NCBI GenBank assembly: GCA_016793505.1
Contig: JAEULW010000096.1
Span: 1 to 39,233, forward strand
Reading direction: 5' to 3'
DNA: 39,233 bases
Source: Methylobacteriaceae bacterium
GTDB lineage: Bacteria; Pseudomonadota; Alphaproteobacteria; Rhizobiales; Beijerinckiaceae
The notes beneath the pieces were generated by a model. It made no database searches. It saw only the letters and a list, made by a program, of their open reading frames with translations, and was not told the origin of the DNA. Below, in pieces: positions 1 to 34,641 of this stretch (positions within the stretch are counted from its first letter, which is position 1; each line of letters begins with the position of its first letter). The translations under genes were made by a program, and so were the position numbers.

Positions 1-1053
1 GGCGGCGCGCAGGCCCTGCGGCGCGCCGCGCGCCGCGGTTTCGCGCATCAACTTGTCGAGCGCGGCGTCGACGTCGGCCGGCGTCGAGCCGGTGGCGAGG
101 ATGGTCGGCCGTCCGCCTTCGACGGCGGGCAGCACCGCAAGACGCGGGCCGCCGGGATCGGCGAGCGTCTCGAGACCGGCGACGCGGCGCAACTCGTCCC
201 AGCGCCCGACGGCGAGGTTGACGCCATAGGCGTCGGCGGCGAGCGTCGTCTCGACATCGACCAGAACCTGCTCGAAGCGGCCGTTGACGGCGATCGCCTG
301 CGCGGCGCGCAACACGCGGTCGACGGCGCCGATCTCGGTGTTCTCCGGGATCAGCGCGCGCACCTGCATCGCGCCCTGCGGATTGGGCGGCAGGGCCGGC
401 AGATCCTCGATGGCGGCGACGCCCGCATCGTCGGCGGCGAACAGGAAGCCGGTCTGCGCCGGATCGATCTGCGCCCACAATTCGTAGGTCGCCTGCAGCG
501 AGCAGTCGACGCGATGGCGCTGCTGCACCGAGATGCGCAGCGCGTTGAAGCCGGGCTTCACCGCGTCCGCCGGCACGTCGAAGGTCAGCACCGAGACCGA
601 ATGCGGCGCCTTGATCGGCGCGGCGCCGATAGTCACCTCGTTGATCTGCACGGTCAGCGTCGAGGCCTCGGGCATCACCGAGACGGCCGACAGATAACCG
701 AGCTGGAAGCGCAGCGGCGCGGCGGCCTGCGCGGCGGTCAGATAGATCGGCCATTCCGAGGCGCCGATCTCGCCGGCGAGGCGATAGCCCTGCGCATTGT
801 TGTGGAGATGGCGAAGGCGCGGGCCGGCAGGCGCGGCGGGCGGCGGCGGCGCGACGACGGGCTTCGCCGACGCGTCGGTTCTGGCCGGCGCCTCGATGCG
901 CGGGGGCGACTCCAATTTGACGGGCGCGGCGGCGGCTGGGCGCGGCGCGGCCGGCGCCTCGATGCGCGTCATCGGCGCGGCCTGGAACAGCGAAGGCTGC
1001 GCCGATGCGGCCGAGGCGAAGAGGGCGAGGATGAGGGCGAGGCTGGCGCGCAT
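1..1053 (-). CDS. bcsB: BcsB, cellulose synthase periplasmic subunit (N-terminal 351 codons)
   Basis: BcsB is the periplasmic, membrane-anchored partner of BcsA and guides the nascent glucan across the periplasm. The frame begins at ATG 1053-1051 and runs off the left edge without a stop. About 351 codons are present, while the family usually has 700-800 residues. Residues 1-19 form a signal peptide (MRASLALILALFASAASA, then Gln). An Ala/Pro-rich linker follows to about residue 70, then a BcsB-like region with segments such as YLTAAQAAAPLRFQLGY and LRISVQQRHRVDC. Position directly after bcsA on the same strand supports the call. No strong Shine-Dalgarno precedes the ATG; the expected bcsA stop (TGA 1061-1059) is five bases upstream, so translational coupling is likely. 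The frame also stays open upstream of this ATG, so an in-frame GTG at 1062-1060 is possible, but the signal peptide fits the chosen start. Identity rests on recognition of the sequence and on context. Confidence 0.85.
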   Translation of the reverse strand, partial: MRASLALILALFASAASAQPSLFQAAPMTRIEAPAAPRPAAAAPVKLESPPRIEAPARTDASAKPVVAPPPPAAPAGPRLRHLHNNAQGYRLAGEIGASEWPIYLTAAQAAAPLRFQLGYLSAVSVMPEASTLTVQINEVTIGAAPIKAPHSVSVLTFDVPADAVKPGFNALRISVQQRHRVDCSLQATYELWAQIDPAQTGFLFAADDAGVAAIEDLPALPPNPQGAMQVRALIPENTEIGAVDRVLRAAQAIAVNGRFEQVLVDVETTLAADAYGVNLAVGRWDELRRVAGLETLADPGGPRLAVLPAVEGGRPTILATGSTPADVDAALDKLMRETAARGAPQGLRAA

Positions 1054-1058
1054 GGCGG

Positions 1059-3658
1059 TCACGCGGCCCGGATCGACGATTTGCCGGAGGGGGCGCGCGC
1101 TCCAGCAGGCGTCGCAGATTGACGACGGGATCATCCGACTCCGGCTCGGCCGGCGCGGCGTGGGTGGGCGCCAGGCGCCCGATCGCGGCCTCGTTCTCGC
1201 GTCCGACCGGGGCGGCCGGCGGCGTGACGGCGGACGGGCCGATGGCGGCGCCGGGCCGGGCGCCGCGCGCGGCGGCGGCCAGAATGTCGGCGCCGGCGAT
1301 GGCGCGGCGATGCGGGGCGAGCCGCAGCTCGACGGCGCGCTGCAACGCCTCGACCGGCTGCGCCTCGTCGGGCGCAGGCGCCTCGACGGAAGTCTCGACC
1401 GGCGCGACGGCCGGCGCGGCGATGACGGCGGGCGTCTGCGCGGCGGCGACGGGCGCGGCCTCGGCCGGCGTCGCCGTTTCAACGGCGCCGCGCGCCCGCC
1501 ATTTGGCGCGCAGTTCGATCGCCAGATAGGACAGCGAACGGAACGGCTCGAGCAGGCCCCATTTGAGGAACTGCGCGCTGCCGCGGAAGATGTCCTGAAA
1601 ATTGCGGCGGCTGGCGAGGAAGCTCGGCAGGGCGTCTGAATCGCCGTACATCAGATCGGCGAGTTCGTAATATTCGAGACCCTTCAGTTCGGGAAACTCG
1701 AAGGCGAGCTTGAGCGTCTTGCCGTCGTCCTCGATGCGGCGCAGCAGCAGCGGCAGCGGCGTCGCGCCGCCATACGGACCCATGGGGACGACGCTCAGCG
1801 CGGCGCGCGCGCCGTCGGCGAGCTTCGCCAGCGCGTCGTCATGGGCGAGGCGCACCGAGCAGCCGCCGGCCGAAACGTCGAGCACGTCGACATCGAACGT
1901 GCGTCCGTCGATCGCCAGCGCGCCCTTGCGCGTCACGCCGAGGCGGGGATGGCGATCGGGCTGGGCGCGCTCGGACACCGCGCCGAGCGCGGCGCCGGCG
2001 ATCACCATGTTGAAGGTGTTCCACAGGCAGACGACCAGCATCAGATTGTTGACGCCGGGCTCGAACATGTAGCGCAGGCCCGCGGTGACGCCGCCAGCCA
2101 GCAGCAGGCCGTAGATGACGAAGAAGGGCCAGGCGAGTTCGGACAGGTGATCGTTGTCGAGCGTCAGGCCCTTGGCGGTGACGTTGAAGGTCGGCTTGCG
2201 CGGATTGGCGACGACGGTGACGATCGCCTTGGCGAGGAAGACGCCCTGCACATACTCGTACAGTTCCGACACCCAGGGCCAGCGAACGCGGCCGTACATG
2301 TAGTTCTGGATCATGACGTTCACGATCAGATACATGAGCGTGTAGGCGATCGTCTCCTGGATGTTCGAGACGAAAATCTTGATGTCGAAGAAGATGTAGA
2401 GCAGCGGCGAGAGCATGAAGATCAGCCGCGGCACGGGGAAGAACCAGAACGTCATGCTGGAGAGATAGGCGACGCGCTGGACGAGGCTGAGGCCCTTCTT
2501 GAGCGCCGGATTCTTCAGGATCATGATCTGGAACATGCCCTGGCACCAGCGCGAGCGCTGGCCGATGAAGCTCGTGAACGTCTCGGGCTGCAGGCCGGCG
2601 ATCAGCGGCTTGTCGACATAGGCCGAATGCCAGCCCGAAGCATGCAGCTCGAAGGCGGTCTCGCAGTCCTCCGTGATGGTGATGCCGGAAAAGCCGCCGG
2701 TCGTCTCGAGCGCGCTGCGGCGCAGGATCGCCGCCGAGCCGCAGAAGAACGAGCCGTCCCACTTGTCGAGGCCGCGCTGCGTCACCGAGTAGAACATCTC
2801 GTTCTCGGACGGCATGCGGTCGAAGGTCTTGAGGTTCTTCTCGATCGGATCGGGATTGAGGAAGACGTGCGGCGTCTGCACGAGAAACAGTTTCGGGTCC
2901 TTCAGGAAGTGGCCGACGGTCTCGCGCAGGAACATGCGGAAGGGGGCGTGATCGGCGTCGAAGACGACGATCAGCTCGCCGTTCGAATCCTTCAGGCAGG
3001 CGTTCATGTTGCCGGCCTTGGCGTGGAGGTTCTTCTCGCGCGTGTGGTATTTCGCGCCGAGCTGCTCGCACAACGCCATCAGGCTGCGCCGTCTTTCCTG
3101 CGCAGCCGCCGCCTTCTCCGGATTCTTGTCGTTGCACTTCTGGTCCGTGCCGCCGTCGTCGCACAGCCAGACAGTCAGCTTGTCGGGCGGATAGTGCATC
3201 GATTTCGCCGCCGCGATGGTGGTGGCGAGAATGTATTCGTCCTCGTTGTAGGTCGGGATGTAGACGTCGACGGTCGGCAGATCCTCGTCCGGCGTCTCCT
3301 CGAGGCGCGGGCGGTGCAGCGGATCGACGTTGATGATCAGGCTGATCGCCAGAATGCCGAAACAGTACATCTCGGCGAGGTAGAGGATGAAGCCGGGCAC
3401 GAAGTCGACCAGCTCGGTCACCGGCGGCAGCGTCTGCGTGGTGCGCCAGTAGACGTAGCGCAGCACCACCAGCGAGCCGAGCGCGAGCAGCACCTGACGC
3501 ACCCAGGGTCCGCGGCCGAACACCCAGATCGTCACCATGGAGACAATGACGGCGACGGAAAGCGACAGTTGCGCCTGGACGCTGACGGGTTGCGTCACCA
3601 GCGCAACCGCCGCGAGCCCGGAAAGGCCCCACGCCATCCATCGAAGCGCAGCGATCAT
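1059..3658 (-). CDS. bcsA: BcsA, cellulose synthase catalytic subunit (frame interrupted near its 3' end)
   Basis: BcsA is the processive inner-membrane GT2 glycosyltransferase that polymerises UDP-glucose to cellulose and exports it. Catalytic motifs are all present: DDG (residues 167-169), DAD (234-236), TED (329-331) and QRSRW (367-371), between N- and C-terminal membrane segments. A PilZ domain follows at about residues 560-690, with DVSAGG at 594-599. The usual RxxxR motif reads D568-R-H-P-R572. The last 150 or so residues are an Ala/Pro-rich tail. Start ATG 3658 has an AGGGCAGG-like ribosome site; an in-frame ATG at 3706 lacks one. The frame has no stop down to base 1. Shifting -1 at the five-G run 1089-1093 gives a tail ending in GKSSIRAA and TGA 1061-1059, five bases before bcsB, for about 866 residues. 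The end given here assumes that shift, which may be a sequencing error or a real mutation. Confidence 0.9.
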
Positions 3659-3787
3659 GCCTGCCCTGGATTCCCCTGCGTCAAATCTTGACGCTTGGGA
3701 AACCATCGGACGGCGCCAGTTAACGCAGCGATAGCGCCGGCGCGCGCGTCCGGCGGCGTAGTCAACACCTGGTAAACAGCTTGTCTC

Positions 3788-3838: not shown

Positions 3839-5029
3839 TCAGGCGGCGGCGAGTTCGGCGGCGACGCCGGGCAGGCGCATCACCGACAGCGCCAGCGCCT
3901 GGGCGCAGGGGACGAGCGAGGCGACCTCCATGAACTCCTCGGGCGTGTGGCCGCCCCCGCCCGCCGGGCCGACCGAACAGAGCGTCGGGCAGCCGACCGC
4001 CGCGGTGTAGCCGGAATCGGCGCAGCCCCCGGTGAACTCGGCGGTGACCTCGAAGCCCATGTCGCGGGCGGCGGCGCGATAGGTCTCGAACATGGCGCGG
4101 CCGCCTGCGCTCTCCTCGAGCGGCAGGAATTCGCCGGAGATGGTCAGGCGCGCGCTCGCGCCGGGCACGGAGCAGGTCTCGACGATGGCGCGGATCGCCT
4201 CGATCGCCGGGGCGCGGTCCTCAGCCTTGACATAGCGCAGGTCGATCTCGGCGCGGCAGGACGGGGCGACGGTGTTGACGGTCTGGCCGCCATGGATCGT
4301 GCCGACGTTGAGCGTGATTCCCCTGGCATAGTCGGTCAGCGCGTGAATGCGCGGGATCTTGCGGGCGATCTCCTCGATCGCCGAGACGCCCTTGTCGTGA
4401 TTGGCGCCGGAATGGGCGGCCTTGCCGGTCACCTCCATCGCCATGAAGACGCCGCCCTTGCGGCCCTTGGTGATGCGGTGCGGGCCGGCGCGCGAGGGCT
4501 CGGAATTGAACACGCAGCGCGCCGCGCGCGCCTCGCGCTCGATGACGGCGCGCGAGAAGGGCGAGGCGATCTCCTCGTCGCTCGTCACCAGCGCGACGAT
4601 CGGGGCGGGGTGGCCGCCGCAGGCGGCGAAGGCGGCGGCGACGAAGGCGTTCATGACGAGGCCCGACTTCATGTCGGCGACGCCCGGGCCCCAGGCGCGG
4701 CCCGCCTCGATGCGGAAGGGCCGGCGCGTCGGTTCGCCCTTCGGGAACACCGTGTCGCGATGGCCCATCAGGATGATCGGGCGCCGGTCGTTGGCCATGG
4801 GCTGGGCGAGTTCGGCGCGGATCGCCTCGCCGAAGCGGGCGTCGGGATCGGTCGTCACCGTCATGCCGGCTTTCTCGAAGAAGGCCTTCAGCGGTTCGCC
4901 GGCGGCGTCGACGCCGGCCTTGTCCCAGGTGCCGCTGTCGACGTTCACCAGCGTCTCGAGCAAGGCCAGCATGTCGCCTTCGCGCGCAGCGAGCCAGTCG
5001 ACGATCTTGCGTTCGGCTTCAGTGAGCAT
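3839..5029 (-). CDS. M20 family metallohydrolase, carboxypeptidase G2-like
   Basis: This 396-residue protein belongs to the M20 di-zinc hydrolases and is closest in look to glutamate carboxypeptidase (CPG2), which removes C-terminal Glu from N-acyl or folate-like substrates. Expected metal and catalytic residues are visible: H90 and D92 in GHRDTVFP, D119 in GVADMKSG, E152/E153 in SDEE, E177 in NSEPS and H361 in GGHTPEEF. A dimerisation (lid) domain occupies roughly residues 190-300. No signal peptide is seen, so it probably acts in the cytoplasm, unlike the exported Pseudomonas CPG2. It diverges from the IclR regulator across a 129-bp gap and is probably controlled with the hydantoinase/transporter operon on the other side. 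The family call is firm. The substrate is not known; aminoacylase, peptidase and N-carbamoyl amino-acid hydrolase are alternatives. Confidence 0.88.
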   Translation of the reverse strand: MLTEAERKIVDWLAAREGDMLALLETLVNVDSGTWDKAGVDAAGEPLKAFFEKAGMTVTTDPDARFGEAIRAELAQPMANDRRPIILMGHRDTVFPKGEPTRRPFRIEAGRAWGPGVADMKSGLVMNAFVAAAFAACGGHPAPIVALVTSDEEIASPFSRAVIEREARAARCVFNSEPSRAGPHRITKGRKGGVFMAMEVTGKAAHSGANHDKGVSAIEEIARKIPRIHALTDYARGITLNVGTIHGGQTVNTVAPSCRAEIDLRYVKAEDRAPAIEAIRAIVETCSVPGASARLTISGEFLPLEESAGGRAMFETYRAAARDMGFEVTAEFTGGCADSGYTAAVGCPTLCSVGPAGGGGHTPEEFMEVASLVPCAQALALSVMRLPGVAAELAAA

Positions 5030-5078
5030 GCGGGTCCTCGCAGCGATGGCCCATGGCGCGGGCGAGGCGCAAATTCCG

Positions 5079-5100
5079 GCAAGGCGGGCGCTTGCGCAAG
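5079..5100. promoter_or_regulatory. Candidate IclR-type operator in the divergent gap
   Basis: Three copies of one half-site sit together: GCAAG (5079-5083), its inverse CTTGC (5091-5095) and GCAAG again (5096-5100). The last two form the perfect palindrome CTTGCGCAAG. They lie between the divergent M20 and IclR genes, where an IclR regulator normally binds. This is inferred from position and symmetry only; in a GC-rich genome such short palindromes also arise by chance. Confidence 0.3.
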
Positions 5101-5158
5101 GCGGCGGAGCGGCCTAGCCTCGCCAATATTCGCAACCTCTGTTCCGGTTTTTGGCACA

Positions 5159-5941
5159 ATGACGACCTTGTCGAGCGCCGCGGCGGTGCTGCGCTGCTAT
5201 TCGGCGGATCGCTGCGATCTCACCGTCACGCAGGTGTCGGGGCTGCTCGGCATGCCCAAGAGCAACGCCTCGCGGCTGTTGCGGGCGATGGCGGCCTGCG
5301 GCCTGCTGGAGCCGGTCGGCGCCTCGAAACGCTATCGCCCCGGCCTGCTGCTGCACGAGGCGGGGGCGGTGTTCCGCACCTCCTCGGCGCTGACGCAGCG
5401 GGCCGACGAGGTGGTGGCGCGCGTGGCGGCGGCGAGCGGCCATACCGGCTATGTCAGCCGGCGCGACGGCGTCGAGATGGTGGCCGTCACCGATCATCCG
5501 GGCATGCATGCGCTGCGCGTCGCCTCCTCGATCGGCCGCCGGCTGAACGCGGGGGCGAGCGCCACCGGCCGCAGCCTGCTGGCCCGCCTGCCGGACGCCG
5601 AGATCCGGGCGCTGTTCACGCCGTTCCCGACGCCGCCCTCGGCCAATGCGCCTTCGAACGCCGACGAACTGCTGCGCCGCGTCGAGGCGGTGCGGCGGCG
5701 CGGCTTCGCCTGCGCCATCGACGAGGCCAATCGCGGCGTCGGCGCGGTGGCGGTGGCGGTCGGCGATCCGCAGACGCAGAGCGAGGTTTCGCTGTGCATC
5801 ACCTTCCCCGCCGCGCTGATGAACGAGGCCGAGCGCATCGAGCTGGCGCGTGAGCTGCACGAAGGCGCCGCGGCCATCGCGGCGCTGACCGGCGATGCGC
5901 GCTTTCCCGCCGCGTTCCGGGCCGAGGCGGGCGCGGCATGA
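5159..5941 (+). CDS. IclR family transcriptional regulator
   Basis: This 260-residue protein has the IclR layout: an N-terminal winged helix-turn-helix (about residues 8-65, including LTVTQVSGLLGMPKSNASRLLRAM) and a C-terminal ligand-binding domain (about 80-250). The latter holds the family-like segments GASATGRSLLARLP and FACAIDEANRGVGAVAVAV. IclR proteins usually control adjacent catabolic genes in response to a pathway metabolite. ATG 5159 was chosen because it gives the normal family N terminus; the frame is open far upstream only as antisense of the M20 gene. No clear Shine-Dalgarno precedes this ATG, so the message may be leaderless or weakly initiated. Its stop overlaps the start of the hydantoinase gene (ATGA, 5938-5941), so regulator and enzyme are co-transcribed. 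It probably regulates both this operon and the divergent M20 gene. Confidence 0.9.
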   Translation: MTTLSSAAAVLRCYSADRCDLTVTQVSGLLGMPKSNASRLLRAMAACGLLEPVGASKRYRPGLLLHEAGAVFRTSSALTQRADEVVARVAAASGHTGYVSRRDGVEMVAVTDHPGMHALRVASSIGRRLNAGASATGRSLLARLPDAEIRALFTPFPTPPSANAPSNADELLRRVEAVRRRGFACAIDEANRGVGAVAVAVGDPQTQSEVSLCITFPAALMNEAERIELARELHEGAAAIAALTGDARFPAAFRAEAGAA

Positions 5942-8900
5942 GCAACGCGGCGGCGCGCTGGCGCATCGGCTTCGACATCGGCGGCACGTTCACCGATTTC
6001 ATTCTCTACGACGGCGACAAGCGGGCCGTGACGCTGCACAAGCGGCTGACGACGCCGCATGATCCGTCCGAGGCGGCGCTGGCGGGCCTCGCCGAACTGA
6101 CGGCGATGGCCTCGATCACGCTGGCCGATGTCGGCGAGATCGTGCATGGCACGACGCTGGTCACCAATGCGGTGATCGAGCGGCGCGGGGCGAGGCTCGG
6201 TCTGTTGACGACGCAGGGCTTCCGCGACGCGCTCGAGATGGGCGCCGAGCAGCGCTACGACATCTACGATCTGTTCCTCGCCTTCCCCGAGCCGCTGGCG
6301 CCGCGACGCTGGCGGCGCGAGGCGGTCGAGCGCGTCGATCGCGACGGACGCATCGTCACGCCGTTCGATCTCGATCAGGCGCGGGCGGAGCTGACGCGCC
6401 TCGTCGCCGAGGGCTGCGAGGCGGTGGCGGTGTGCTTTCTGCATTCGCATCGCAATCCCGCGCATGAGCGGGCGGTGGGCGACCTCATCCGCACGGCGTT
6501 TCCGCAGCTCGCCGTCTCGCTCAGTCATGAAGTCGTCGGCGAGATCGGCGAATACCAGCGCTTCGCCACGACGGCGGCGAACGCCTATGTGCAGCCGCTC
6601 GCCGAAAAATACCTGACCGCGCTGGAGCGCGAATTGCGGGCGCGCGGTTTCCGCGGCGCGTTGCGGCTGATGCATTCGGCGGGCGGGCTGGTCTCGGTCG
6701 AGACGGCGCGCGCCTTTCCGATCCGGCTGCTGGAATCGGGCCCGGCCGGCGGCGGCCTCGCCACGGCGCTGTTCGGCGCGCTCGCCGGGCAGCGCGACGT
6801 CATCTCCTTCGACATGGGCGGCACGACCGCGAAAGCCTGTCTGATCGAGGAGGGTCGCGCCGACGTCGCGCCGATGATGGAGGCGGGCCGCGTCCATCGC
6901 TTCAAGAAGGGATCGGGCCTGCCGATCAAGGCGCCGGTGATCGACATGATCGAGATCGGCGCCGGCGGCGGCTCGATCGCCTCGATCGACGAGGTCGGGC
7001 TCCTGCGCGTCGGGCCGCGCTCGGCCGGGTCCGATCCGGGGCCGGCCTGCTACGGCCTCGGCGGCCTCGAGCCGACCGTCACGGACGCTGCGGTCGTGCT
7101 CGGCTACTACGATCCCGGCTTCTTCCTCGGCGGACGCATGGCGCTCGACGTCGCGGCGGCGCGGCGGGCGGTGGCCCGCGTCGCCGAGCCGCTCGGCCTG
7201 TCGATCGAGGCGGCGGCGGCGGGCATCCATCAGGTCGTCATCGACGCCATGGCCTCGGCGGCGCGCGTGCATCTGGTCGAGAAGGGCAAGGACCCGCGCG
7301 GCTACGCCATGGTCGGCTTCGGCGGCGCGGGGCCGGCGCATGCGGTGGAGGTGGCGCGGGCGCTCGGCGTCGCAGAGGTGATCATTCCGCCGGCCTCGGG
7401 CGCGGCCTCGGCGCTCGGTTTTCTCGCCGCGCCGCTGTCCTTCGAACGGGCGCGCTCGCTGCCGCTGCGGCTGGAGCCGGGCTTCGACGCCGCCGGGCTC
7501 GCCGAAGCGCTCGCCGAGCTGGAGCGCGACGGGCGGGCGCGCCTCGCCGCCGCCGGCGTCGCGGCTGAGGACATGCGCGTCGAGCGCAGCGCCGACATGC
7601 GGCTCGTCGGCCAGATGCACGACATCGCCGTGCCGCTGCCGGACGGGCCGGTCGACGAAAGCCGGCTGGAGGCGATCCGCGCCGCCTTCGTCGCCGCCTA
7701 TACCCGCCGCTATGCGCCGCCGCCCGAGGGGGCGCGCGTCGAGGCGATCAATTTCCGGGTGCGCGTCGTCGGGCCGACGCCGGCGCTGTCGCTCGACGGC
7801 GCGGTCGGCGGCGGCGGCGGCGTCAAATGCAAGGGGACGCGGCGCGCCTGGTTCGACGGCGGCTTCGTCGAAGCCTCGGTGTGGGACCGCTATGCGCTCG
7901 CCCCGGGCGACGTCGTCGAGGGGCCGGCGATCATCGAGGAGCGCGAGGCGACGACGCTCGCGCCGCCGGGCGACCGGGCCCGGATCGACGCGGCGCTCAA
8001 TATCCGCATCGAGGTGGCGCGGCGCGCGGCGGCGCAGACGCTGATTCCGGCCGGGCTCGACAGGGCCGCGGCCGCCGCGCTGATCGAGTCCGATCCGATC
8101 GCGCTCGAGATCATGTGGAGCCGCCTCGTCACCGTCGTCGAGGAGATGTGGCTGACGGTGATCCGCACCGCCTTCTCGCTGGTGATCTCGGAGGCGCAGG
8201 ACTTCGCCTGCGAGCTGCTCGATCCGGAAGGCGAGACGCTGGCGCATTCGCCGCGGGCGATGCCGGTCTTCAACCTCACCTTGCCGCGCGCGGTGAAGGC
8301 GCTGATCGAGCGCTATCCGCCGCACACGCTGCAGCCCGGCGACGTGCTCATCACCAACGATCCGTGGCTGTGCGCCGGACATCTGTTCGACATCGCGGTG
8401 GTGACGCCGGTGTTCCGCGAGGGCCGGCTGGTCGCCCTGATGGGCACGGTCGGCCATGTCTCGGACATCGGCGGCACCAAGGATTCGCTGTCGGCGCGCG
8501 AGATCTACGAGGAAGGCTTCCAGATCCCGCCGATGAAGCTCTACGAGGCGGGAAAGCCGAACGAGACGCTGTTCCGCCTGCTCGCCGAAAACGTCCGCAA
8601 CGGCGATCAGGTGATCGGCGACGTGCAGAGCTTCGTCGCGGCCAACGCGCTCGGCGCGGAGCGGCTGTCGGCCTTCATGACCGACTACGGCATGGCCGAT
8701 CTCAGGGCGCTGGCGCAGGTGGTGCAGGAGCGTTCGGAAAAGGCGATGCGGGAGGCGATCGCGGCGCTGCCCGACGGGGTCTACCGCTCCGAGGTCTGGA
8801 ACAATCCGCTCGGCGCGCCGATGCGCTATCCGCTCGAGCTGACCGTCGCCGGCGACGAGATCACGCTCGATTTCGCCGGCGCGCCGGCGCAGCCGCCGCG

Positions 8901-9780
8901 CGGCGGCCTGAACTGCACGCTGAACTACACCGCCGCGCACGCCACCTATCCGCTCAAATGCATGCTGACGCCGGCGGTGCGCGGCAACGCCGGCTGCTAC
9001 CGGCCGTTCACGGTCAAGGCGCCGGAAGGCTCGATCCTCAACGCGACGCGGCCGATGGCGGTCAACCTGCGCACCCGCACCGGCTGGTACATCGCGCCGA
9101 ACATCTTTTCGGCGCTGGCCGAGGCCGCGCCAGACCGCGTCCAGGCGGCGACCGGCCTGCCCGTCGCCGCCTCGGTCTACGGCCGCGACAGTGAAGGCCG
9201 CATCTATTCGGACCTCCTGTTCATGGGCGGGGGGCAGGGCGCCTCCTCGGCGCGGGACGGCAAGTCCGGGCTGCTGTGGCCGACCTCGGCGGCCAACACC
9301 TCGGTCGAGATGTTCGAGACGCGCGCCCCCGTGCTGGTGCTCGAAAAGGCCTATGTGACCGATTCCGGCGGGCCGGGACGGCAGCGCGGCGGCCTCGGCC
9401 AGCAGGTCCGGCTGCGCAAGCTCGTCGACGACGGGCAGGCGACGCTGGTCTCGGTCTATCCCGAGGGCGTCGGCACGCCGGCGCCGGGCCTGGCCGGCGG
9501 CGAGCCGGGCGCGACGGCGCAGGGGCTCGTCACCGACGCGCGCGGCGAGGCGCTGCGCGATTGCGGCACGGGCGAACTCGTCACGCTGACCGGAACGGAC
9601 CGCATCGTCGCCATCGTGCTCGCCGGCGGCGCCGGCTATGGTCCGGCGGCGACACGCGATCGTGAGGCGGCGGCGCGCGACGTGGCGGACGAAAAGGTTT
9701 CACCCGCAGCCGCGAGGCTGCATTATGGTTTCGACGCCGGCAGCCCGGCGGAAGCGGCGCAGCGCATGAGGGGAGCATGA
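5938..9780 (+). CDS. Fused HyuA-HyuB hydantoinase/5-oxoprolinase
   Basis: This 1,280-residue protein joins both subunits of the ATP-dependent hydantoinase/5-oxoprolinase family, enzymes that open five-membered lactam or imide rings. The HyuA part (about 8-690) has an actin-like ATP fold with GFDIGGTFTDF, GTTLVTNAVIERRG, DMGGTTAKACLI, GAGGGSIASID and GSDPGPACYG. The HyuB part (about 715-1245) starts at DPIALEIMWSRL and has NDPWLCAGHLFD, GHVSDIGGTKD and RGGLNCTLNYTAAH. In most bacteria these are two genes; the fused order resembles eukaryotic 5-oxoprolinase. Whether the substrate is 5-oxoproline, a hydantoin, an N-methylhydantoin or something else cannot be told. Its start overlaps the IclR stop and its stop overlaps the next start (ATGA, 9777-9780). 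The adjoining transporter suggests that the substrate, or a precursor, is imported. Confidence 0.9.
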   Translation: MSNAAARWRIGFDIGGTFTDFILYDGDKRAVTLHKRLTTPHDPSEAALAGLAELTAMASITLADVGEIVHGTTLVTNAVIERRGARLGLLTTQGFRDALEMGAEQRYDIYDLFLAFPEPLAPRRWRREAVERVDRDGRIVTPFDLDQARAELTRLVAEGCEAVAVCFLHSHRNPAHERAVGDLIRTAFPQLAVSLSHEVVGEIGEYQRFATTAANAYVQPLAEKYLTALERELRARGFRGALRLMHSAGGLVSVETARAFPIRLLESGPAGGGLATALFGALAGQRDVISFDMGGTTAKACLIEEGRADVAPMMEAGRVHRFKKGSGLPIKAPVIDMIEIGAGGGSIASIDEVGLLRVGPRSAGSDPGPACYGLGGLEPTVTDAAVVLGYYDPGFFLGGRMALDVAAARRAVARVAEPLGLSIEAAAAGIHQVVIDAMASAARVHLVEKGKDPRGYAMVGFGGAGPAHAVEVARALGVAEVIIPPASGAASALGFLAAPLSFERARSLPLRLEPGFDAAGLAEALAELERDGRARLAAAGVAAEDMRVERSADMRLVGQMHDIAVPLPDGPVDESRLEAIRAAFVAAYTRRYAPPPEGARVEAINFRVRVVGPTPALSLDGAVGGGGGVKCKGTRRAWFDGGFVEASVWDRYALAPGDVVEGPAIIEEREATTLAPPGDRARIDAALNIRIEVARRAAAQTLIPAGLDRAAAAALIESDPIALEIMWSRLVTVVEEMWLTVIRTAFSLVISEAQDFACELLDPEGETLAHSPRAMPVFNLTLPRAVKALIERYPPHTLQPGDVLITNDPWLCAGHLFDIAVVTPVFREGRLVALMGTVGHVSDIGGTKDSLSAREIYEEGFQIPPMKLYEAGKPNETLFRLLAENVRNGDQVIGDVQSFVAANALGAERLSAFMTDYGMADLRALAQVVQERSEKAMREAIAALPDGVYRSEVWNNPLGAPMRYPLELTVAGDEITLDFAGAPAQPPRGGLNCTLNYTAAHATYPLKCMLTPAVRGNAGCYRPFTVKAPEGSILNATRPMAVNLRTRTGWYIAPNIFSALAEAAPDRVQAATGLPVAASVYGRDSEGRIYSDLLFMGGGQGASSARDGKSGLLWPTSAANTSVEMFETRAPVLVLEKAYVTDSGGPGRQRGGLGQQVRLRKLVDDGQATLVSVYPEGVGTPAPGLAGGEPGATAQGLVTDARGEALRDCGTGELVTLTGTDRIVAIVLAGGAGYGPAATRDREAAARDVADEKVSPAAARLHYGFDAGSPAEAAQRMRGA

Positions 9781-32340: not shown

Positions 32341-34641
32341 TTGAAGGGCAGCGCGAACGTCGTGAATCTCGACGAACTGGTGGAGGTCGAGCAGCTCGAC
32401 ATCGCCGCCAGGCTCGCGCCGCTGAGCGTCGTCACGTCGGTGGCGGTGACGCAGGTCATCATCTGGCTGACCTGGACGCACGGCGTCCAGATTTACCTTG
32501 TTTTTCTTGAACTTGCGACGATCGGCGTGTCCGGTCTGGCGCTTGCCGGGACGATCCGCTGGCGCGCCGAGCCGAAGCCGGCGCGAATCGATCCGACGCG
32601 GCTGTTCCTGTACCGGGCGGCCGCCCTGGCCGGCGGCGTGACGCTCGGCACGATCCCGATGACGCTGTTCGCCGACGCCGACCAGCAGGTCCGCTCGGCG
32701 ATCATGGCGACCTGCGCCGGGCTGATCGCCACCGGCATGAGCCTGTCGGCGATGCCGCGGCTGGCCTTCCTGTTTTCCGGGCCGATCGTCATCGGCTCCT
32801 TCATCGGCCTGGCGACGACGGGCGACGGCTTCTACATCTCCGTGGCGATCCTGCTCGTCGTCTACGCCTTCTTCCTGTCCTTCCTGACGGTGCAGCTGGC
32901 GCGGCTGATCACCAAGCGCGTCGTCGACCGGATCGAGCTCGAGCGCGAACGCGCGCTGACGGCGCAGCTCCTGCAGGATTTCGAGGCGAACGCCGACGAC
33001 TGGCTGTGGGAGACCGATTCCGCCTTCCGTCTGGCGCATGTCTCGGATCGCCTCGCCGAAGCATTCGGCTGCGCCAGGAGCCATCTGCAGGGCGCCAATT
33101 TCCTGCAGCTGCTCGAGCGTCACGTCGTCGAGGGGTCGCGGGCGACGCTCGTCAAGCTGCGCGAGAAGATCGAGGCGGGCGAGGCCTTCCGCGACGCGAT
33201 GCTGCGGGTCAGGCTGGCGGGCGGCGACAGGTGGTGGCGCCTCGCCGGCAAGCCGGTGGTGATCGGCGCCGACGTGTTCTCGGGCTATCGCGGCGTCGGC
33301 TCGGACGTCACCGAAAAGCGCGAGGCGGACGATCGGGTGGCGCATCTGGCGACGCATGACGCGCTGACCAATCTGCCCAACCGCGTCTCCTTCCAGAACC
33401 GGCTCGACCTGGCGATCGAAGGTCTGGCGCGCGGCGAGCGTTTCGCCGTGCTGTGTCTCGATCTCGACGATTTCAAAGCGGTCAACGACAGCTTCGGTCA
33501 CGGCGTCGGCGACGCGCTGCTGAAGCTGGCGGCGGCGCGGATGCGCACGCTGCTTTCGCCGCGCGACTTTCTGGTGCGCCTCGCCGGCGACGAATTCGTC
33601 ATCCTGCGCACGGGGCCGGGCGCCGGCGACCGCGCGACGATCGCGGCGCTCGGGGCGCGGATCATCGCCTCGATCGGCGAGCCTTTCCCGCTCGACGGCA
33701 TCTCGGCGCATATCGGCGTCAGCATCGGCGTCGCGCTGGCGCCGGAGGACGGGACGCGCGAAACCCTGCGTCGCGCCGATCTGGCGCTCTACCAGAGCAA
33801 GCGCCTCGGCAAGAACAGTCTGCATTTCTATCATGCGGACATGGACGAGCTGGTGTCGCAGCGCCGGGCGCTCGCCGCCGATCTGCGCAATGCGCTCGCC
33901 CACGAGGAGTTCTCGCTCGTCTTCCAGCCGCAGGTGAACGCCGCGACGCACGCCGTGCAGGGCTTCGAGGCGCTGTTGCGCTGGAACCACAAGACGCGCG
34001 GGCTGGTCTCGCCCGTCGAGTTCATCCCTCTGGCCGAGGAGACCGGCGCGATCATCCCGATCGGCGAATGGGCGCTGCGCGAGGCCTGTCGCACCGCCGC
34101 GCAATGGCCGCGCGGCATCAAGGTCGCGGTCAACGTTTCGCCGATCCAGTTCCGCTTCTCGGAGCTGCCCAAGATGGTCGAGAAGGCGCTGGCCGACAGC
34201 GGCCTCGAGGCGCATCGGCTGGAGCTCGAGCTGACCGAATCGGCGCTGCTCGAGAATTCCCATCAGACGCAATCGACGCTGCACGCCCTGCGCGCGCTCG
34301 GCGTCAGGCTGTCGCTCGACGATTTCGGCACCGGCTATTCGTCGCTGAGCTATCTGCGCCAGATCCCGTTCGATCGCGTCAAGATCGATCGCTGCTTCGT
34401 GCAGGACCTGCCGCAGAACGCCCGCGACCTGTCGATCGTGCGGGCGATCGTCGACATCGCCACGGCGATGGGCATGTCGATCACCGCCGAGGGCGTCGAG
34501 ACCGAGGAGCAGAGCCGCTGTCTGCTGCAGCAGGGCTGTCACCAGCTGCAGGGCTATCTGTTCAGCAAGCCGGTCAGCACGGCCGCCGCCGCGGAACTCG
34601 TCGGCGGAGCGACGGCCGGCCAGCGCCAGAGCGCCGCCTGA
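32341..34641 (+). CDS. Membrane PAS-GGDEF-EAL protein, c-di-GMP turnover
   Basis: This 766-residue protein has six N-terminal membrane helices (about 25-45, 51-74, 88-111, 118-137, 139-160 and 163-186), a PAS-like domain (about 215-325, with DDWLWETDSAFRLAHVSD), a GGDEF domain (about 340-490) and an EAL domain (about 515-755). The cyclase motif reads RLAGDEF (A415), a variant of GGDEF, and the inhibitory RxxD site reads SPRD, so feedback inhibition is unlikely. The phosphodiesterase residues look complete: E543-A-L, NVSPIQF, ELTES, D660-D661, KIDRCF and E717-GVET. Net activity is probably c-di-GMP hydrolysis, tuned by the PAS or membrane domain. The start is TTG 32341 with GAGGG just before it; no ATG is available, and GTG 32362 is the alternative. 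Its stop is 15 bp from the convergent htpG stop. Confidence 0.92.
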   Translation: MKGSANVVNLDELVEVEQLDIAARLAPLSVVTSVAVTQVIIWLTWTHGVQIYLVFLELATIGVSGLALAGTIRWRAEPKPARIDPTRLFLYRAAALAGGVTLGTIPMTLFADADQQVRSAIMATCAGLIATGMSLSAMPRLAFLFSGPIVIGSFIGLATTGDGFYISVAILLVVYAFFLSFLTVQLARLITKRVVDRIELERERALTAQLLQDFEANADDWLWETDSAFRLAHVSDRLAEAFGCARSHLQGANFLQLLERHVVEGSRATLVKLREKIEAGEAFRDAMLRVRLAGGDRWWRLAGKPVVIGADVFSGYRGVGSDVTEKREADDRVAHLATHDALTNLPNRVSFQNRLDLAIEGLARGERFAVLCLDLDDFKAVNDSFGHGVGDALLKLAAARMRTLLSPRDFLVRLAGDEFVILRTGPGAGDRATIAALGARIIASIGEPFPLDGISAHIGVSIGVALAPEDGTRETLRRADLALYQSKRLGKNSLHFYHADMDELVSQRRALAADLRNALAHEEFSLVFQPQVNAATHAVQGFEALLRWNHKTRGLVSPVEFIPLAEETGAIIPIGEWALREACRTAAQWPRGIKVAVNVSPIQFRFSELPKMVEKALADSGLEAHRLELELTESALLENSHQTQSTLHALRALGVRLSLDDFGTGYSSLSYLRQIPFDRVKIDRCFVQDLPQNARDLSIVRAIVDIATAMGMSITAEGVETEEQSRCLLQQGCHQLQGYLFSKPVSTAAAAELVGGATAGQRQSAA

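Follow-up and report, generated by a model that had tools for sequence, protein, structure and literature searches.

The BcsA cellulose synthase encoded in the window (the whole stretch of DNA analysed here, 39,233 nucleotides) has an aspartate in place of the first arginine of the RxxxR motif in its PilZ domain, and an acidic residue in this column is the rule throughout a clade of related enzymes. Our favoured reading, held with a little more belief than doubt, is that this is a normal BcsA-BcsB synthase in which the residue equivalent to R580 of Rhodobacter sphaeroides became acidic in the ancestor of the clade, with loss of autoinhibition and activity free of c-di-GMP. BcsA is a textbook c-di-GMP effector, and BcsAs that bear a PilZ domain are generally annotated as c-di-GMP-activated. 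What the alignments add to this known system is a lineage-wide natural variant; no published description of PilZ loss in Methylobacterium BcsA, or of a variant of this kind across a lineage, was found in the open-access literature.

Identity of the BcsA gene and its PilZ motif

The gene lies on the minus strand at the left end of the window (1062..3706; ATG 3706, alternative ATG 3658), which is a contig end in a 4.1 Mb genome of 352 contigs. It encodes a genuine cellulose synthase catalytic subunit: the product scores 846.5 bits against TIGR03030 (curated cut-off 699.1), contains GT2 domains in addition to PilZ, and carries the GT2 motifs DDG (183-185), DAD (250-252), TED (345-347) and QRSRW (383-387). 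The gating-loop motif FxVTxK is present as FNVTAK (residues 507-512; 2171..2188, minus strand), and most of the GT2 and FxVTxK columns were invariant across 66 sequences. Translation and alignments also place Glu375 (2582..2584, minus strand) on E371 of R. sphaeroides, hence the salt-bridge partner is kept. The closest relatives are BcsAs of Rhodoblastus (76% identity over the best segment), followed by those of Beijerinckiaceae, Methylocystis, Bosea-like bacteria and Methylobacterium. AlphaFold2 predicts the complete BcsA fold (mean pLDDT 91.7), and the model matches R. sphaeroides 4p00 with a Z of 47.1 and an rmsd of 2.0 over 718 residues; 4p00 is the c-di-GMP-bound form, and its rank as the best match of the model was not taken as evidence of state.

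The minus-strand translation from ATG 3706 contains ...AVSERAQPDRHPRLGVTRKG..., within which QPDRHPR forms residues 582-588 (window 1963-1943), with the Asp codon GAT at 1957-1955. The RxxxR site, D584-R-H-P-R588 (R. sphaeroides R580...R584), spans 1943..1957 on the minus strand, and the PilZ domain was detected as PF07238 at residues 585-676 (1679..1954, minus strand; 22.7 bits, cut-off 22.5). Modelling of this domain, a check suggested by an earlier sequence-only reading, predicted the six-stranded barrel of the PilZ fold with confidence. In phmmer alignments QPDRHPR was matched without gaps to QRRAAPR of R. sphaeroides BcsA and QVRRSHR of E. coli BcsA, pairing Asp584 with Arg580, Pro583 with Arg579 and Arg588 with Arg584 of R. 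sphaeroides (in literature numbering, which 4hg6 follows, the 4p00 chain being one higher). As the alignments are gap-free, a misaligned motif is ruled out; so is an Arg shifted to position 581, a column that varies among Ala, Lys and Arg and is Ala in the window. Of the two signatures of a c-di-GMP-binding PilZ receptor, RxxxR is broken (DRHPR) and (D/N)x(S/A)xxG is intact (DVSAGG, residues 610-615; 1862..1879, minus strand), while the R580-E371 pair is reduced to its glutamate.

The sequence-only reading had already named the replacement of the first Arg by Asp and the retention of the second Arg and DVSAGG, all of which are borne out by the alignments and translation, and no Arg stands four residues before R588. 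Its numbering needs adjusting, as the span 1940-1960 overlaps the motif but covers P583-L589, and its D568, correct as a residue, takes the second ATG (residue 17) as the start; from ATG 3706 this is D584, R572 is R588, and 594-599 are 610-615.

Spread of the acidic residue across the BcsA tree

BcsA sequences were gathered from named genomes and from a sampling of genomes at the levels of family, order, class and phylum, and 236 of them were aligned. A tree of 209 rows was built on residues 60-575, so that neither the PilZ domain nor the E371 column contributed to it. The window BcsA falls in a single clade of 80 rows (Rhodoblastus, Methylocystis, Bosea-like, Methylobacterium) with a FastTree support of 100, and the clade was also present in an IQ-TREE mixture-model tree of 59 rows (SH-aLRT 99). 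Alignment with many BcsAs, as the earlier reading had proposed, gave a column that is Arg in most BcsAs outside this clade (Arg 111, Gln 11, Ala 3, gap 4; acidic in 0 of 129) and Asp or Glu in 77 of the 80 rows inside it (Glu 44, Asp 33, with Ala, Thr and Arg once each). This near-fixation, taken with the recurrence of QPDRHPR in L008/L037, the nearest relative, and in assemblies made independently, indicates that the Asp was inherited and is not a product of chance or assembly error. A likely one-base frame anomaly nearby (1089-1093) would be in keeping with a sequencing or assembly error at Asp584 in this many-contig draft. Such an error is refuted by cultured strains, which have D or E at the column, and by independent assemblies with the same motif, numbering in the dozens; we give it practically no weight.

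The E371 column is Glu or Asp in 76 of the 80 clade rows and FxVTxK is kept in all acidic sequences. In the 80-row alignment no clade-diagnostic column showed a basic change able to pair with the new acid, which speaks against a charge swap (a basic residue at E371, or a new Lys or Arg elsewhere). PilZ identity in the clade fell below that of canonical BcsAs in one matched band and did not differ from it in another, which gives no clear sign of faster, relaxed evolution of the domain.

Within the acidic clade, L011/L050 has an Arg at the R580 position (EPRRHPR) and is a useful comparison enzyme. L011 is placed inside the D group or at its edge; its Arg is possibly a natural reversion, and given this nested Arg-bearing member the acidic change may represent reversible tuning.

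Two grades of PilZ site within the clade

The 33 Asp-bearing (D-type) rows, including the window, retain most of the c-di-GMP site. The Arg584 column is Arg (query R588) in 97% of them, the Ser and Gly of DxSxxG (query S612, G615) are present in 100%, with mostly D or N at the first position, and R580, Q582 and R593 (query numbering) are invariant. Methylobacterium, a model for methylotrophy and leaf colonisation, has a Glu-bearing (E-type) form in which Arg584 is replaced by Ser (36/36 rows), the Asp of DxSxxG by Arg (36/36) and its Gly often by Ala; these 36 rows were chosen by their Ser and Arg states, and among all 60 Glu-bearing sequences the Ser was found in 52 and the Arg in 50. A possible stand-in for the missing Arg is its neighbour Arg585, retained by 97% of D-type rows and 78% of E-type rows. 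Judging by these residues, c-di-GMP binding is likely to have been lost in Methylobacterium. In the D type of the window its loss is possible and may not be assumed, because the remaining site is so well kept; indeed, this conservation suggests that a ligand is still bound. Both the clade-wide fixation and the full erosion of the c-di-GMP motif in Methylobacterium had been overlooked in the sequence-only reading.

Probable consequences for control by c-di-GMP

The passages of PMC5567048 that treat R. sphaeroides BcsA describe an R580-E371 salt bridge that holds the gating loop shut, a first RxxxR Arg that touches both c-di-GMP and E371, and, citing Morgan et al. 2014, an R580A variant that is constitutively active without c-di-GMP. 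The precedent invoked by the earlier reading, that loss of the first Arg makes the enzyme constitutive, agrees with those passages. The aligned residues say that a tether of the R. sphaeroides type cannot form in the window BcsA, nor in nearly all other members of its clade. In our favoured reading, an acidic residue would have replaced Arg580 in the ancestor of the Beijerinckiaceae/Methylobacterium clade, the R580-E371 tether of the gating loop would be unable to form, and an Asp facing Glu375 would repel it if anything, leaving a synthase substantially active without c-di-GMP. In the D type, where the second Arg and (D/N)xSxxG survive, c-di-GMP may still bind, more weakly or in another way, and modulate activity; in Methylobacterium, with the c-di-GMP site gone, control would be transcriptional or via other partners. 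The window synthase is thus read as probably one without c-di-GMP-released autoinhibition and with basal activity, and its most likely description is the one suggested earlier, an enzyme poorly responsive to c-di-GMP or always on. More tentatively, and at somewhat less than even chances, a lineage of family rank may have lost enzyme-level coupling to c-di-GMP once, via the acidic residue, after which the Methylobacterium PilZ domain would have stopped binding c-di-GMP.

The good state of the D-type site would also suit a switch that was rewired, in which the PilZ domain binds c-di-GMP via R588, (D/N)xSxxG and Arg585/Arg580 (query numbering), a different tether holds the gating loop, and the enzyme is still controlled. 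The retention of DRHPR, (D/N)VSAGG and the invariant query residues across the D-type rows points this way, as does an Asp that is fixed in its column and not drifting. However, we regard this as rather unlikely, given that the lost Arg contacts both c-di-GMP and E371 in the R. sphaeroides account, that a compensating charge change is absent from the clade alignment, and that the sister E-type dismantled its site, as expected had regulation already gone. Neutral erosion, with PilZ control unneeded, the motif decaying and only regulation lost, seems improbable. The R584, D609 and G614 columns are altered in Methylobacterium, and R580 was lost in other lineages by deletion or to Gln or Ala, both of which would accord with decay; drift would, however, yield many different residues and not an acidic one in nearly every row of a deep clade, the E-type columns are fixed for their new residues (Ser 100%, Arg 100%), and conservation persists in the barrel and C-terminal helices.

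The first Arg of RxxxR is retained by all five other PilZ domains of the genome, which also encodes about 15 GGDEF domains, one of them in the window beside an EAL domain. The change is therefore confined to BcsA in a genome that has c-di-GMP signalling, and a genome-wide loss of the system is ruled out. No BcsE-type second c-di-GMP sensor was found in the genome (about 95% complete).

Comparison with known systems and other losses of the salt-bridge residues

The window BcsA resembles that of R. sphaeroides (4hg6, 4p00, 4p02) in its whole-length fold, catalytic motifs, FxVTxK, Glu371 equivalent, PilZ barrel and BcsB, and differs in its c-di-GMP motif, where Arg580 is replaced by Asp and Arg579 by Pro. 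Like the R. sphaeroides R580A laboratory mutant, the window variant lacks the arginine of the autoinhibitory salt bridge, but it is natural, acidic instead of Ala and fixed in a clade. Methylobacterium/Methylorubrum BcsAs belong to the same clade and are acidic at the same column, but with Glu instead of Asp and with the second Arg and DxSxxG also lost. BgsA of Sinorhizobium meliloti, a mixed-linkage glucan synthase, is likewise a Rhizobiales GT2 enzyme without a canonical PilZ RxxxR; it lacks a PilZ domain, c-di-GMP being bound by another C-terminal domain (PMC5567048), whereas the window protein retains the PilZ barrel and is identified as BcsA by its score. Clumping is seen in ordinary shaken cultures of wild-type M. 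extorquens AM1 and PA1 and disappears once the cel genes are deleted (PMC3639900). M. extorquens relatives carry the E/S form of the BcsA PilZ motif. The clumping fits a switched-on synthase, although it does not show independence from c-di-GMP.

Elsewhere in the order, a separate BcsA group (L016, L153, L155, L194, and the damaged L014) has a four-residue deletion at RxxxR, through which the first Arg was lost independently. In Rhizobium-type BcsAs (L223, L222, L219, L240, L246, L235, L178 and others) E371 is mostly Ala and R580 often Gln or Ala, and the tether seems to have been dismantled from both sides. The R580-E371 pair (with E or D at 371) is intact in 97 of 238 aligned rows, in a sample that is centred on the clade and in which a few rows copy the window sequence; comparison of R580 loss with E371 loss across the tree gave five independent pairs, a small number. 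G014 and G101 (deletion group) and G124 (acidic clade; L157, Thr) each carry a second, canonical bcsA in addition to the one whose motif is damaged.

The acidic clade forms a natural mutant set, graded from an intact site to full loss and including one Arg-bearing member, with which to test whether the R580-E371 tether makes BcsA c-di-GMP dependent, and whether Methylobacterium cellulose is under c-di-GMP control at all. If the more tentative reading of a lineage-wide uncoupling holds, cellulose in these environmental and plant-associated bacteria would come from synthases that do not answer to c-di-GMP. The clade would also be a source of synthases unlocked by nature for use in making cellulose.

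Neighbouring genes

The gene for the BcsA partner, bcsB (1..1053, minus strand; ATG 1053-1051), adjoins bcsA here, as it does in relatives L037 and L057; it is truncated by the contig end and was identified by PF03170 (2.6e-20, at 31-798). No stop interrupts the bcsA frame before the contig is cut off; the likely one, TGA 1061-1059, just before the bcsB ATG, is in another frame. A run of five C (1089-1093, minus strand) lies shortly upstream of this TGA, and there is probably a one-base assembly length error near the bcsA 3′ end, or a real frameshift. About 29 kb from bcsA, the window encodes a GGDEF-EAL protein of about 766 aa (32341-34641, plus strand). Upstream of bcsA, positions 3839-9780 hold an M20 peptidase gene (minus strand) and a fused hydantoinase A/B gene (oxoprolinase-like, plus strand), neither with an apparent tie to cellulose.
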